Origin: Pseudomonadota bacterium
GTDB taxonomy: Bacteria > Pseudomonadota > Gammaproteobacteria > Burkholderiales > JAKAFK01
Reading direction: 5' to 3'
Assembly: GCA_021817985.1 (NCBI GenBank)
Contig: JAKAFK010000012.1
Location: 1 to 64,000 of the forward strand
DNA: 64,000 nt
Shown here: one piece after another, positions 3,811 through 63,752 of the stretch
How positions within the stretch are numbered: position 1 is the first letter of the stretch
How the letters are laid out: every line of letters starts with the position of its first letter
Position numbers and translations under genes: made by a program
Notes under the pieces: model-generated
Databases searched by the model: none
What the model saw: the letters and a program-made list of their open reading frames with translations, nothing else
Told to the model about the DNA's origin: nothing

Positions 3811-5628
<1,818 letters not shown>

Positions 5629-5929
5629 CTTTCATCGTTTCGCAGGATCGGCATCGCGGGCGCTGAGCATTTGGCATAGGTCCGAGGCGGCCTATGATAC
5701 GTCAGTTGACTCGGCGCCGGTACCGGAAGCCCTGTGACCCGCCGCTCAGGCGATCATGAAAAACGCCAGGAGCTGCCGATGTTGATCGGCTTGCGTGCGC
5801 ATAGCCTTAAAGATCCTCGCGTCGGGCAACCCGTCAAGGAGACCGGCCGGCATCTGACCGGCCCGGAAGCCTGTGCCTGGTGCCTGGGGACCGATGTCGA
5901 AAGTGTGTTGCCGGAGCGCCACGCGTCGT

Positions 5930-6076
5930 CGTTACCGAAGCCGCCAAGCCATTGAGCAGCAATTCCTGCTGCTGGAAACAACTGCAGACCGTTATGTGGC
6001 CTTGTACCGCCGCGAGCCCGCAGACGGTGCAGTGCATGTGCTGGCCTTCCGGCACCAGAAGGAGATGGGCGGCTGA
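5930..6076 (+). pseudogene. ParE-type toxin remnant with internal deletion
   Basis: The frame reads RQAIEQQFLLLETT directly followed by RYVALYRREPADGAVHVLAFRHQKEMGG. The second part matches the C-terminal beta-sheet of ParE/RelE plasmid-stabilisation toxins, whose canonical ending is VLAFRHQKEAGY. The first part matches the preceding helix. The roughly 20-25 residues that normally separate them are missing and there is no convincing N-terminus or antitoxin gene upstream. This is therefore a deletion remnant rather than a working toxin. Family recognition is from memory of the motif. Confidence 0.65.
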
Positions 6077-6149
6077 CGAAGAATTCTGACCTCACAAGGC
6101 CGCGTCGTGAAGAAGCATCCTCGATGCTTCGCCTTCGATACTGCCCGGA

Positions 6150-6344
6150 ATGCTGCGTCCCAAGGCGGAAGAAGCTGATACGGCGCTACGGGAGGCCAAT
6201 ACGCGCAAACTCAAGCCGACGCAGCGATGTCCCCGTAGCGGGAGGCTCGTTCCGAAGAGCCTCTCCCAGCGGACGCACCAATGCCCGGTCGGCGGCACAG
6301 CCTGTGGGCGCGACGAGAACGCAGCGCGGACGTTGCTCCCCTGA
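6150..6344 (+). pseudogene. TnpB C-terminal zinc-ribbon fragment
   Basis: The frame contains LRPKAEEAD...TQRCPRSGRLVPKSLSQRTHQCP...GRDENAARTLL, matching the last ~60 residues of IS200/IS605 TnpB, where a CPxCG...CPxCG zinc ribbon is followed by the RuvC-III D-x-N-A-A motif. Here both knuckles have lost their second cysteine (CPRSG, CPVGG), while RDENAA is kept. The rest of the protein is absent. It is unrelated to the TnpB at 1145-3145, which lacks a zinc ribbon, so it derives from a different element. Confidence 0.7.
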
Positions 6345-6452
6345 TCGAAGGAGAAACGTGGCCTGGAACAGGAGGCCGGACAGGCAAGGATCACGGCGTC
6401 TCGTCTTGCTTGTCAGAAACCGCCACGATAGCCGTGGCTGCGTGGCGATAGT

Positions 6453-7040
6453 TCATTTAACGATTGCCGCGGGATGTGCCCGCAGCAACCGCAGGTAGGT
6501 CGGCGACATCTTCTGCTTCGGGAAGAAGGCGGTCCAGACGGAGACGGGCAGCAGTTGATCCGGCGGCGGGGCAAAGATAACGTCTTGTGTATTCACCATC
6601 GCGTGACAGGCGATGCACGCCTGGACCTTGCCATAAGAGACGACCTTGCCGGTAGGCGCGTAGGCGGCCCAGACCCAGTTGCGGTCCGCCTTGTCGTAGC
6701 CATCGAGCTTGAGGGTGGCCGTGATGCCCGTCAGTTTCCGGTCCGCATCGAAGTTCTCTTTGACGAGCAGCGCGCCGTTGGGATAGCGCTGGACCGCGCC
6801 GATGCTGCCTGCCTTGCGAATCGTGTCGTTGGCCGCCGCGTTCGCAAGATCGACCGTATAGACGTCAACGGTGCGTGAGCCGGGCTGGTAGGCCTTGCTC
6901 CTCAGCATGAGGGCGTGGCCCTTCTGAAGGGCCTGTATATCGCGCCAAAGCTGAGACGGGCTGGGCGGTTGCACCGCGAGCGCGAGGGCGGGCATTGCAG
7001 AAAGTACAAGTGCTGCGGCGCCGATGGCGACGGTTCGCAT
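6453..7040 (-). CDS. Cytochrome P460-family periplasmic c-type haem protein
   Basis: 195 residues from the chosen ATG, which follows AAGGAG at good spacing; upstream in-frame codons have no ribosome binding site. A signal peptide (MRTVAIGAAALVLSAMPALALA) directs export. The mature part has the P460 fold hallmarks: SRTVDVYTVDLANAAA, a YPNGALLVKENF core and a single CxxCH haem c motif (CIACH). P460 proteins carry a cross-linked haem c and oxidise hydroxylamine or act in nitrogen-oxide chemistry, but many homologues have no known substrate. It starts 62 bp after the anti-sigma gene and is probably its cotranscribed downstream partner, so its expression may depend on the ECF factor encoded upstream. 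Confidence 0.85.
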   Translation of the reverse strand: MRTVAIGAAALVLSAMPALALAVQPPSPSQLWRDIQALQKGHALMLRSKAYQPGSRTVDVYTVDLANAAANDTIRKAGSIGAVQRYPNGALLVKENFDADRKLTGITATLKLDGYDKADRNWVWAAYAPTGKVVSYGKVQACIACHAMVNTQDVIFAPPPDQLLPVSVWTAFFPKQKMSPTYLRLLRAHPAAIVK

Positions 7041-17881: not shown

Positions 17882-18322
17882 TCTGTCAGGACGTTACCCA
17901 GCCCCAAGGGCCAGTCGGGGCCGAGGTCGGCCGGCGAGCACGCATGATGCCAGAGCGGAGCCACTGGCGTCGAGCGTCCGTGTGCTGCGATGCGCTATTG
18001 TAATATTAGGAAGCAAGAATATTGTACGGAGGCTCAAGCGCGACCGATGATTGGGGTGCACGGTCGTTACTGGTTGCCTTGACAGTCTGTGAGATATGGA
18101 CTATCTGTCAATGAGGGAGTTCGAGAAGCGCCAAAAAGGCCTGCTTGGCGGGAAATTCGCCAGATAAAGAACGCGCGGCCAGCGAGCCGGACGTGCGTGC
18201 TGTGCACTCTTGCTCCATTTGCTTGATGCGCTTCTCGGTCGGCACGATGACATGCTTCGGGGACGGTGATGGGGCGTTATGCCGTCGTTTCGGCGTTGGT
18301 GCAATAGTCGTTGGGGGTATCC
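17882..18322. other. Intergenic stretch between cydD and the HMA gene
   Basis: No convincing gene. Apart from the AT-rich repeat, the minus strand has a 45-codon frame (18108-18245, ending AKQAFLALLELPH) with coding-like composition but only a GTG start and no ribosome binding site. It may be the tail of a lost gene. Nothing else is recognisable. Confidence 0.5.
18002..18023 (-). promoter_or_regulatory. AT-rich inverted repeat upstream of cydD
   Basis: AATATT-N10-AATATT stands out in otherwise GC-rich DNA, about 120 bp upstream of the cydD start. Because AATATT is itself palindromic, the repeats can be read as direct or inverted. A regulator site or promoter element is plausible but no known box matches well. 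Confidence 0.3.
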
Positions 18323-18541
18323 ATGGTTCATCTGAAAATTGGCGGCATGACGCGCGAATCGTGCGCGTTGCAGGTCAAGCATGCCCTTGAAAGGCTCCCC
18401 GGCGTTCGTTCCGCCGTTGTGTCCTATCCGAGCGGCCGCGCGCAGATTGTGGCGGATGTCGACATGCCCAGAGAGACCGTCACCGAAGCGGTGAGCGAAC
18501 TGGGTTACCGTGCGATGTTTGCCGATTCGCGCCACCCGTAG
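18323..18541 (+). CDS. Solo heavy-metal-associated (HMA) domain protein with one metal cysteine lost
   Basis: 72 residues forming one complete beta-alpha-beta-beta-alpha-beta HMA fold: MVHLKIGGMT, SCALQVKHALERLPGVRSAVVSYPSG and a LGYRAMFAD ending, closest to the N-terminal domain of mercuric reductases. The metal loop reads GMTRESC, so the first cysteine of the CxxC pair is replaced by arginine. Only one thiol remains, which should abolish normal Cu(I) or Hg(II) binding. Start chosen at ATG 18323 behind GGGGG. It stands alone with no mer gene nearby, so it may be a relic or a protein with altered function. Confidence 0.7.
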   Translation: MVHLKIGGMTRESCALQVKHALERLPGVRSAVVSYPSGRAQIVADVDMPRETVTEAVSELGYRAMFADSRHP

Positions 18542-59296: not shown

Positions 59297-59330
59297 TTGA
59301 CGGTCCCGAAGGAGGCCCCCATATTGGGGG
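59297..59330 (+). promoter_or_regulatory. Promoter and candidate operator of copA
   Basis: TTGACG (59297-59302) is followed after 17 nt by CATATT (59320-59325), a good sigma-70 pattern 35-60 bp upstream of copA. A perfect dyad CCCCCATATTGGGGG (59316-59330) covers the -10, resembling the GC-rich palindromes bound by CsoR-type copper repressors rather than a CueR site in a stretched spacer. Regulator identity is inferred. The rest of 58959-59359 holds no supported gene. Confidence 0.5.
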
Positions 59331-59359
59331 TAGATTTTGATGGCGGAGAGTCCTAGAGC

Positions 59360-62128
59360 ATGGGTGATGCGATGCGGCGCGTGGAAATCGGCATCGAAGG
59401 GATGACCTGCGCTTCATGCAGCGCACGCGTGGAACAAGGGTTGCAGGCGCTGCCCGGCGTTGCCGATGCAACCGTGAACCTGGGCACGGAGCGTGCGAGC
59501 GTGCAGTTCGACCGCGAGAAGACGGGCGCGCAGGCCTTGAGCGAGGCGATTGCCGCCACAGGGTATATTCCCGTCGTCGCCGAAAACACTCTCGCCATCG
59601 AGGGGATGACTTGCGCCTCGTGCGTCCGGCATGTGGAGGACGCGCTCAACAGCGTGCCCGGCGTCCTGGAGGCCACGGTCAACCTGGCGACCGAGCGGGC
59701 CTCGGTGCGCTATTTCCCGGCGAGCGTCGAGATCGGGGACATGGTCGCGGCGGTTGTCGCGGCGGGCTATGGTGCCCGGCCACTTGCGGGTCCGGGGGAC
59801 GATGAAGCCGGTCGCAAGCGTCAAGCACTGGCGGCGATGCGCCGCGATGTGATCGTTGCGGTGTCGGCATCGCTTCCGGTGCTGGTCCTGTCCATGGGCG
59901 GTGCCTTTATCCCGGGGTTGCGCGCGGCGATGGACGTGTTCGCGCCCTTTGCGTCCTTCTGGGACTGGGTGCAGGCGTTGTTCGCCTCGGTCGTGCTTTT
60001 TGGGCCCGGGCGGCGCTTTTTTCGCCCGGGTCTCATCGCCTACCGCCACCTTTCGCCTGACATGAATTCGCTGGTGGCAACCGGCACAGGGGCGGCGTGG
60101 GCATACAGCATGCTGGTTCTGCTCATCCCCGGGGCGTTCCCGGCGGCGGCCCGTGAGGTCTACTTCGACTCCGCCGCCGTCGTGGTGGCGGCGGTTTTGT
60201 TCGGGAAGTACCTGGAAGAACTCGCGAAGGGAAGGACCTCGGCGGCGATCAGGAAGCTTCTTGGTTTGCAGGCCAAGGAGGCCCATGTGCTGCGCGAAGG
60301 GGCGGAAGAGACGATTCCCATCGGTGCGGTGGTGAAAGGGGATCTCGTGATCGTGCGTCCCGGCGAGCGCCTGCCGATCGACGGTCGCGTGCGCGACGGC
60401 GCGTCGCATGTCGACGCCTCCATGCTGACAGGCGAGCCGCTGCCGGTCGCCAAGCGAGCAGGCGACGAGGTGGTGGGCGGAACGGTCAACCAGGAAGGGC
60501 GCCTTCTGGTTGAGGCGACCTCCGTCGGGCGCGACACCGTGCTCGCTCAGATCATCTTGCTGGTGGAGCGGGCGCAGACCGGCAAGCTGCCCATCCAGGG
60601 GTTGGCCGATCGCGTGGTTCGGGTATTCACGCCGGTTGTCATTCTCATCGCGCTTGCGAGCTTCGCCGTCTGGCTGGCGCTCGCGCCGGCGCCTGCCATC
60701 ACCACGGCCCTCATGTCGGCGGTGGCGGTGCTTGTGGTTGCGTGCCCGTGCGCCATGGGGCTCGCCACGCCCGCGGCGATCATGGTGGGCACGGGACGCG
60801 CTGCCGAACTGGGCGTTCTGTTCCGCAAGGGCGATGCCCTCGAAACCCTGGCGAGCGTCGATACGGTTCTCCTGGACAAGACGGGCACCTTGACCAAGGG
60901 AAAGCCCGCCCTGACCGCTTGCCTGGCCGATGACCGGCAAGCGGTGTTGCGCCTGAGCGCGGCGATCGAGGCGGCGTCCGAGCACCCGTTGGCGCACGCG
61001 GTCCTGGAGGCGGCCAGACGAGACGGCATTGCCTGGCCTGCGGTGACCGATTTTGCGGCGATTCCTGGGTTTGGGATCGAGGGGCGAGTGGACGGTCGGC
61101 TTGTGCGCATCGGCTCCCGCCGCTTCCTTGAACGTGAGAATATCGCGGCAGGCCCATGGTTGTCGTCGGCACAGTCACTGGAGGCGGACGGCAAGACGGC
61201 GATCTTCGTTGCGGCCGACGGGCAAGTCCTGGGGGTGCTCGCCATTGCCGATCCGGTCAAACCGGAAGCGCCTTCCTTGGTCAGTGCGCTACGGGCGCAG
61301 GGATTGACCGTCGGCATGGTCAGCGGCGATGCACGGCGCACGGCCGAGGCGGTGGGAAGCACCTTGGGTTTGACGGAAATCCACGCGGAGATCCTGCCCC
61401 AGGGCAAGGCCGCCGTCGTCGAGGCGTTGCAGGCGCGCGGCCGGAAGGTCGCCTTCGTGGGCGACGGCATCAATGATGCCCCGGCGCTGGCCCAAGCCGA
61501 CGTCGGGATCGCGCTTGCCTCGGGGACCGACATCGCCATCGAGGCGGGCGAGGTGACCCTGGCCCGGGGCGAGCTTTCGGGCGTCATGACGGCGATTCGT
61601 GCGGCACGCAACACCATGCGCACGATACGTGGCAACCTCTTTTGGGCGTTTTTTTACAACATCTTGCTGATCCCCGTGGCGGCAGGGGTTCTCCTGCCCT
61701 TTGGGCTGCGTCTCAATCCGATGCTGGCGGGCGTGGCCATGGGGCTGTCATCCCTTTTTGTGCTCACGAACAGCCTTCGCCTCAAGGGGCTCAAGCCATG
61801 GACGGCAAGCGTCGGCGAGGCGAGCCCCTTTCAGCATTCGGGCCCCTCGGCCCACCCTGCAAGGCCCGACCCCGCGGGCGCGCGCCTTGACTATTTTGTA
61901 CCCCGTGAAGGAGAAGAAAACATGAGCGATACCACGCTACAGATTACCGGAATGACCTGCGGTCATTGCGCGATGTCCGTCACCAAGGCGCTGCAGCAGG
62001 TTCCCGGCGTGCAGAGCGCCGAGGTCGATCTCGCCCAAGGTACGGCAGTGATACACGGTGCGGCGGCAGCGGAGAATTTGATTGCCGCCGTCAAGAAGGC
62101 CGGCTATCAGGCGGCCCTCAAGGCCTGA
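59360..62128 (+). CDS. copA: Copper-translocating P1B-type ATPase CopA, in frame with copper chaperone CopZ
   Basis: Two N-terminal HMA domains (GMTCASC near residues 15 and 83), eight membrane helices, the actuator TGEPLP, metal-site CPC in ACPCAMG, phosphorylation site [18 protein letters not shown] and hinge [14 protein letters not shown]. It exports Cu(I) from the cytosol. The ATPase normally ends around [13 protein letters not shown] (residue ~810), but the frame continues without a stop through ~40 linker-like residues into a third HMA domain from residue 855. That third domain has its own start and Shine-Dalgarno (see copZ). So the gene may give a 922-residue fusion plus free chaperone. 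Start 59360; ATG 59372 is an alternative. Confidence 0.93.
61908..61913 (+). promoter_or_regulatory. Internal Shine-Dalgarno for copZ
   Basis: AAGGAG followed 8 nt later by ATG 61922, inside the copA frame. The surrounding 40 bp is AT-rich (CCTTGACTATTTTGTACCC) relative to copA. It is the best ribosome site in the region and supports independent initiation of the chaperone. Confidence 0.8.
61922..62128 (+). CDS. copZ: Copper chaperone CopZ (internal, in frame with copA)
   Basis: 68 residues, a complete HMA fold beginning [20 protein letters not shown] with CxxC metal site (CGHC) and ending [13 protein letters not shown]. CopZ carries Cu(I) to CopA. The perfect internal ribosome site suggests it is made as a separate protein; the open copA frame also allows it as the C-terminal domain of a fusion. 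The linker upstream ([19 protein letters not shown]) reads like translated intergenic DNA, implying that the copA stop codon was lost. Confidence 0.85.
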
Positions 62129-62375: not shown

Positions 62376-63752
62376 TCAAGCAACGCCTCCGCCGGGGAGC
62401 AGATTCGACTTGCATCCGGGGAGGAGGTGATGGAGCGTGCTTGCGTGGGAGGGGTAGACGGGGATCATCTCGGTGAGCCGTGCGCAGGTGATTCCATAGC
62501 GGATGGCCATTGCGAAGATATGGATGGTCTCGTCGGCGCCTTGTCCAAAGAGGTGTGCGCCAAGGATGCGCCCGCTGCGCCTGTCGCTGATCACCTTTCC
62601 GAAGGCGGGACCGGCCGCCGCGATGGAAGGCACGACCCAATGGGACATCTCCTCCGCAACGACATCCACGTCGGACCCCCGTTCGCGCGCCATGGCCTCG
62701 CTCTCGCCCACCATGGCCAGCGGCGGCACCGTGAAGATGGCCTGGGGTACCGCGTCGAGGCGCGCGGGCGCCTGCTCCCGCGATAGGAAGTTGTGCGCCG
62801 CCAGACGGCCTTCGTAGGTCGCCGTCGGCGACAGCATGGGTTGGCCGCGCGCATCGCCTGCGGCGAAGATGTTGGGGTTGCCGGGACTTCGCAGATGCTC
62901 GTTGACGACGACCCCTTCAGGGCCCGCCGCAACCCCTGCGGCATCAAGCCCGAGGGCGGCGACTTGGGGGATCCGGCCTGCCGCGTTGAGCATGACCTCG
63001 CCCTTCAGTCTCTCGCCGGTGTCGAGCACGGCCGCATGACCGTCGGCCTCGTGCTCGATGGCCGTGACCTCTCGCCCACGGTGAAACACGATCCCCAGGT
63101 GCATGGAATGCTCCACGAGATGCGAGACCATTTCTTCGTCGCAGTGGGGGAGCAGGCGTTGGCTATGCGCGATCACGTGGACTTCGGATCCAAGCCGGGC
63201 AAACACATGAGCGAATTCGAAAGCGACGGCGCCGCTGCCGACGATCACGAGGGTGCGCGGAACGCGTCGCAATTCAAGGAGCGCATCGCTCGTCAGCAGG
63301 TGCTGGGCGCCGGGAAACCGCAGCGGCCTCGGGGCCGATCCGGTGGCCACGAGTGCACCCTCGAACGCATACCTCTCGCCGCCTGCCTCGATCTGGTCAG
63401 GCGCCACGAAGCGAGGGGCCGCGCGGAGGTAGTGGACGCCTGCCGCGGCAAGGGACCGCTCCGTGGCCTCGGTGACCCCGTCTGTGAATCCGTGTTTGCG
63501 ATCGATCACGGCGTTCCAGTCGATCCGCACGTTGTCGACGTGGATGCCGTGGACGGTGGCGTTGCGGATTTCCTGCAGCATCTCCGTTGCGCGCACCAGA
63601 ACCTTCTTCGGGGTGCAGCCGCGAAGGGAACACACTCCGCCAATCGGCGTGGGATCGACCAGCATCACCGTGCGGCCGGCGGCAGCCACCTGGGTGCTTG
63701 CTGCAAGCCCGGCATTTCCTCCGCCGAGTACGACGAAATCATACCGTTGCAT
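62376..63752 (-). CDS. FAD-dependent pyridine nucleotide-disulfide oxidoreductase (class I)
   Basis: 458 residues. FAD-binding GGGNAGLAAS, redox disulfide GGVCSLRGCTPKK (CxxxxC), the NAD(P) Rossmann VIVGSGAVAFEFAHVFARLG, second FAD motif NIFAAGDARG, and a C-terminal dimerisation domain. This is the glutathione reductase / lipoamide dehydrogenase / MerA fold. The C-terminal His-Glu active pair, usually HPTxxE, is not present as such (VYPSHASTLHHLL). No MerA C-terminal Cys pair exists. Substrate is uncertain; convergence with copZ suggests metal or thiol homeostasis. Confidence 0.88.
   Translation of the reverse strand: MQRYDFVVLGGGNAGLAASTQVAAAGRTVMLVDPTPIGGVCSLRGCTPKKVLVRATEMLQEIRNATVHGIHVDNVRIDWNAVIDRKHGFTDGVTEATERSLAAAGVHYLRAAPRFVAPDQIEAGGERYAFEGALVATGSAPRPLRFPGAQHLLTSDALLELRRVPRTLVIVGSGAVAFEFAHVFARLGSEVHVIAHSQRLLPHCDEEMVSHLVEHSMHLGIVFHRGREVTAIEHEADGHAAVLDTGERLKGEVMLNAAGRIPQVAALGLDAAGVAAGPEGVVVNEHLRSPGNPNIFAAGDARGQPMLSPTATYEGRLAAHNFLSREQAPARLDAVPQAIFTVPPLAMVGESEAMARERGSDVDVVAEEMSHWVVPSIAAAGPAFGKVISDRRSGRILGAHLFGQGADETIHIFAMAIRYGITCARLTEMIPVYPSHASTLHHLLPGCKSNLLPGGGVA

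Follow-up and report, generated by a model that had tools for sequence, protein, structure and literature searches.

Does a single gene at this locus supply both a copper pump that carries its own chaperone and a free copy of that chaperone? The question is raised by the far end of the window—the whole 64,000-nucleotide stretch analysed here, from contig JAKAFK010000012.1 of a Burkholderiales genome—where the reading frame of the Cu+-ATPase CopA runs on, without interruption, into that of the copper chaperone CopZ.

One reading frame for pump and chaperone

The frame at 59360–62128 on the forward strand, to which all of the following features belong, spans 922 codons from an ATG to a TGA (62126–62128) and is open throughout. 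It contains three HMA domains, of which two are N-terminal and carry MTCASC (59393–59566, PF00403, 60.5 bits; and 59588–59770, PF00403, 64.9 bits), and the third lies past the last transmembrane segment, at residues 859–917. The Cu+-ATPase core (residues 146–814, 59795–61801) scored 578 bits with TIGR01511, the model for copper-translocating P-type ATPases (cut-off 397), and has the CPC transmembrane motif of P1B-1 copper ATPases, as expected of a CopA; its last residues, KPW, mark the usual CopA end at residue 814 (position 61801). From there the frame crosses a Pro/Ala-rich linker of 40 residues (residues 815–854, 61802–61921) and enters a 68-residue CopZ with an ATG of its own (61922–62128), recognised by the NCBIfam model CopZ_AFE_1862 at 97.4 bits (cut-off 85) and by PF00403 at 72.4 bits, and bearing the MxCxxC motif within GMTCGHC. 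A Shine-Dalgarno (SD) sequence, AAGGAG, stands before this ATG within the fused frame (61908–61913), with an 8-nt spacer. The predicted masses are 95.5 kDa for the fusion and 6.8 kDa for free CopZ. These particulars agree with the first-pass annotation of the locus, which had described an ATPase frame passing its usual end without a stop, about 40 low-complexity residues, a complete CopZ whose ATG follows AAGGAG at 8 nt, and products near 95 and 7 kDa.

The window's genome is a draft assembly of 184 contigs, and a stop codon at the junction might have been hidden by an assembly or sequencing error; an error of this kind near 61800–61910 had been named at first pass as the finding that would overturn the reading. 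It is ruled out by the one other species of the genus that was compared, a separately assembled MAG (G001, contig JAJYKK010000043.1), in which the same stop-less frame is uninterrupted, although its linker differs from that of the window by 24 substitutions in 120 positions (80% identity) and by no indel, leaving the explanation a practically negligible probability. An open spacer alone is unremarkable—shuffling a spacer of this base composition leaves it open in about 56% of cases, and the linker would come through 24 neutral substitutions without a stop in 63%—and we therefore take the persistence of the open frame in two species as modest evidence for the fusion. The absence of frame-breaking indels from the linker adds a little to it; the flanking intergenic stretches differ between the two species by 8 indels in the 401 bp upstream of copA and by 4 in the 247 bp downstream of copZ.

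Two features flanking the gene were also noted. Upstream, a consensus scan alone predicted a sigma-70-like promoter on the forward strand (TTGACG-17-CATATT, 59297–59325, a 9/12 match), and its -10-like element is overlapped by a near-perfect palindrome, CCCCCATATTGGGGG, at 59315–59331 (the congener has CCCAATATTGG nearby); the palindrome is a possible operator of a metal regulator. Downstream, convergent with copZ, lies a gene for a pyridine-nucleotide disulfide oxidoreductase (62376–63752, reverse strand) that by eye resembles mercuric or dihydrolipoyl reductases.

Loss of the copA stop codon and selection on the fused parts

The first-pass annotation had proposed comparing the copA-copZ junction among relatives, and the comparison proved informative. 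Whereas the congener lacks a stop, some 77 other relatives fetched by similarity to the fused protein have one between 3 and 34 codons past the end of the core (except for a single CopA that reaches the edge of its contig), and in these copZ either follows downstream as a gene of its own or is missing. The fusion in the window's genus is therefore derived, by loss of the stop codon, and the linker is a former intergenic spacer. The nearest CopA proteins (L039, L040, and L044, the last two from Acidithiobacillus) are of the unfused type. The Acidithiobacillus-type copA-copZ operon (CopZ_AFE_1862 family) has the same proteins in the same order, but there CopA ends 12–23 codons past the core, and copZ, where present, is a gene apart.

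Compared with the congener, Ka/Ks was 0.10 for the ATPase core, 0.14 for the N-terminal domains, and 0.17 for CopZ; as judged from these substitution patterns, purifying selection is shown on both the ATPase and the CopZ parts. We sought protein-level constraint on the linker by the same measure and found none, Ka/Ks being above 1 (1.1–1.4), with changes that were evenly spread and distributed 9:9:6 over the codon positions. This is the pattern of unconstrained sequence, which either a flexible tether or a recent spacer would be expected to show, and the linker is presumably disordered.

An exposed, Pro/Ala-rich, and unconstrained linker would also suit another reading, namely that the fusion is cut within it or is rarely completed, such that ordinary CopA and CopZ do the work and the stop loss was near neutral. 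Read-through fusions do occur sporadically elsewhere—the Chromatiaceae genome G632, for example, has one whose linker is about 48 residues long—as would be expected if stop loss were often harmless. However, the fusion has outlasted speciation in the window's genus as well as in the Chromatiaceae genus g351, where 21 of 22 species have it, and no indel has broken the linker frame; we consider this reading improbable.

A probable start for CopZ inside the fused gene

The reading that we favor, and regard as reasonably probable, is that stop loss made one gene that would yield both a CopZ-tethered CopA and, via an internal start, free CopZ. An ancestral copA-copZ operon lost the stop codon of copA in the window's genus, and ribosomes starting at 59360 would since then read the former spacer to produce a 922-residue Cu+-ATPase with CopZ at its C-terminus on a flexible 40-residue linker. 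Other ribosomes would initiate at the former copZ site (AAGGAG, ATG at 61922), in the same frame, and release a free 68-residue CopZ, which could carry Cu(I) to other partners too. We infer that both proteins are made in the window's genus and that the tethered domain is functional; plausibly, the tether concentrates Cu-loaded CopZ locally around the pump's entry site, and the free form serves other partners.

Several properties of the internal site bear on this reading. Pairing of AAGGAG with the 16S tail was calculated at -8.8 kcal/mol for the CopZ site versus -6.6 for copA's own, and anti-SD pairing that strong was found at only 2 of 211 internal in-frame ATGs, CopZ's included, across the 32 long open reading frames of the window. 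RNA folding placed little structure over the CopZ ribosome site, which is only weakly structured, and neither folding nor Rfam identified a notable RNA structure or element at the junction. No other free cytoplasmic CopZ was found among the HMA matches in the window's genome, the rest of which, identified by reading their sequences, were MerP and MerA, a degenerate HMA protein (MTRESC), and ATPases; free CopZ could thus come only from the start at 61922, and the ribosome site at 61908–61913 is its only apparent source in the genome. An annotation giving the long frame alone would miss the sole free CopZ detected there. The AAGGAG is identical in the congener and the ATG is likewise retained, but with two species only, at 80% identity, 11 identical bases in a row have a chance of about 0.09, and the conservation of the SD within the genus is weak evidence for dual output. 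We regard dual output, of fusion and free CopZ, as likely in the window's genus.

Other sequences in these genomes resemble parts of the system. A small HMA-like frame at 18311–18541 (forward strand) of the window has its metal motif degraded to MTRESC in place of MTCxxC, and an HMA match of similar size in the congener, in a 78-aa frame (G001:C103:2510-2713), may be its counterpart. The genome with the fusion also encodes a second CopA-like ATPase (L180, G000:C106:10000-19422, frame 4334–6598), which has a YTCPMHSEI...CPICGMAL metal-binding stretch at its N-terminus instead of HMA domains; a protein match to this ATPase was reported as spanning two TGA codons.

Initiation inside an already translated frame may be weak, and because only two species of the window's genus were compared, the ribosome site there could be a leftover of the former operon. 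The product would then be the fusion alone, a CopA with a C-terminal HMA domain, and the old ribosome site and ATG would yield little or no free CopZ. A linker Ka/Ks of about 1 would suit a young fusion in which such relics had not yet decayed, and the C-terminal HMA domain on the CopA of Archaeoglobus fulgidus (PDB 3fry, discussed below) also favors this alternative. Nevertheless, the site is intact and strong in both species and no other free CopZ was found; with the Chromatiaceae evidence also considered, we judge it rather unlikely that the site is a mere leftover.

How, then, does the arrangement that we favor relate to known systems? In E. coli, copA gives rise to the Cu+-ATPase and, by frameshifting, to a free CopZ-like chaperone from the first N-terminal metal-binding domain (PMC7558416, PMC6747150). 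The likeness to CopA/CopA(Z) is that one copA gene would make both pump and free chaperone, the second product being proposed in the case of the window; the difference is that E. coli truncates the protein at an N-terminal HMA domain by programmed frameshift, whereas the window would provide a C-terminal CopZ by in-frame internal initiation. A single copA gene would here supply pump and free chaperone by a second mechanism, independent of the E. coli frameshift. The first-pass annotation had drawn the same contrast with E. coli, and both the contrast and the gene layout on which it was based hold; its emphasis on the novelty of a C-terminal tether is weakened a little. The CopA of Archaeoglobus fulgidus is likewise a Cu+-ATPase with HMA domains at both ends, its C-terminal metal-binding domain being PDB 3fry (Agarwal 2010, as cited in PMC8475189), and the window's CopA resembles it in having a C-terminal HMA domain with CxxC on the same polypeptide. 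In the window, by contrast, the C-terminal domain can be recognised as a CopZ that has a start of its own, and the fusion is a recent stop loss. No paper describing a bacterial CopA-CopZ fusion was found in the literature searched, which consisted mostly of papers readable without a subscription; although CopA with an HMA domain at its C-terminus has precedent, a CopZ fused there with its own start retained seems undescribed in that literature.

Fusions and conserved starts in the Chromatiaceae

A class-wide search with the copA-copZ junction recovered G496, a genome encoding a 990-residue CopA-CopZ fusion with AAGGAGG and a TTG directly before CopZ, which was the starting point for a set of fusions in family f191. 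We take this family to be the Chromatiaceae because one member, G657, is identical over the compared stretch to a Thiorhodococcus drewsii genome; the Chromatiaceae are purple sulfur bacteria. An in-frame CopZ extends the CopA C-terminus in 21 of the 22 species of G496's genus (g351), in all five readable species of g368, in two of three species of g403, and, separately, in G632 (L285, G632:C40), where the linker of about 48 aa resembles that of the window and a weak SD, GAGAG, precedes the CopZ ATG. As in the window, the SD and start of CopZ are mostly retained in these fusions. Unlike the window's, the linkers in g351, g368, and g403 are only about 10–12 residues long, the CopZ starts in g351 and g368 are TTG or GTG, and the SD has been lost in five species. 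In neighboring genera, a stop codon (TAA, TAG, or TGA) often lies inside the copZ ribosome site or immediately in front of it, and where the stop is so placed, a single base change in it can join the two genes while leaving the site intact. The sole unfused species of g351 (G540; L196, L259) has a TAG overlapping the SD (TAGGAGG) of a copZ that starts with TTG; this species may have reverted or may have kept the ancestral state.

Other candidates proved to be unfused. G511 and G419, put forward by their match spans, have only N-terminal metal-binding domains, and copZ is separate in G1040 and G1009, as well as in Thiorhodococcus drewsii and in three more candidates whose reported frame was long or whose copZ lay close; of that batch, G632 alone was fused. 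A phylum-wide sample of 398 genomes contained no further uninterrupted spanning match among the matches listed, and no clear fusion was seen among the best matches listed from a plasmid collection, which were mostly in multiple pieces.

When a tree was built from the ATPase core, 100/100 branches separated the window's genus from the Chromatiaceae fusions; the latter arose independently of the former. Within the family, g351 and g368 formed one clade (96/98), and forcing all of the family's fused genes into a single clade was disfavored (p-AU 0.02, in a tree without G632). The CopA-CopZ fusion has at least two origins, with three to five being more likely.

The larger number of fused Chromatiaceae genes allowed the internal start to be examined codon by codon. 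The GAG of the ribosome site is invariant among 20 site-keeping fused genes, and the codon before it, which may stand for K, R, Q, M, E, or L, always ends in G. The third base is invariant in only 2 of 192 amino-acid-variable columns, and just once in 623 codon columns, at the ribosome site, does an invariant codon come directly after a column of this kind, in a test chosen after the site had been seen. Similarly, in the 16 site-keeping fused genes of g351, TTG is universal at one of 45 conserved Leu columns, the CopZ start, and one of eight conserved Glu columns is invariant in codon, that of the SD. Since codon columns share one phylogeny, comparing columns controls for relatedness. We read this pattern as selection for free CopZ initiation within the fused gene; given that the xxG-GAG invariance occurs once in 623 columns, free CopZ is probably still made in the site-keeping fused Chromatiaceae. 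Such conservation of the start at the nucleotide level lends indirect support to dual output in the window's genus, and the retention of the site against synonymous change in 20 species speaks against its being a relic. The opposite case is also represented, and indicates that the fusion by itself can be enough: five fused species (L203–L207), forming one clade (support 96/92), have deleted the CopZ ribosome site and kept the fusion, from which it follows that dual output is not obligatory.

On balance, we lean slightly towards the view that one-gene, two-product copper export has arisen repeatedly through stop-loss fusion of CopZ to the CopA C-terminus: the stop often overlaps the copZ ribosome site, a point mutation fuses the genes, and selection keeps the internal start until some lineages discard it, with the window's genus as one case. 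The Chromatiaceae series—separate genes, fusions with the site, and fusions without it—would constitute a natural experiment on the respective jobs of tethered and free CopZ.
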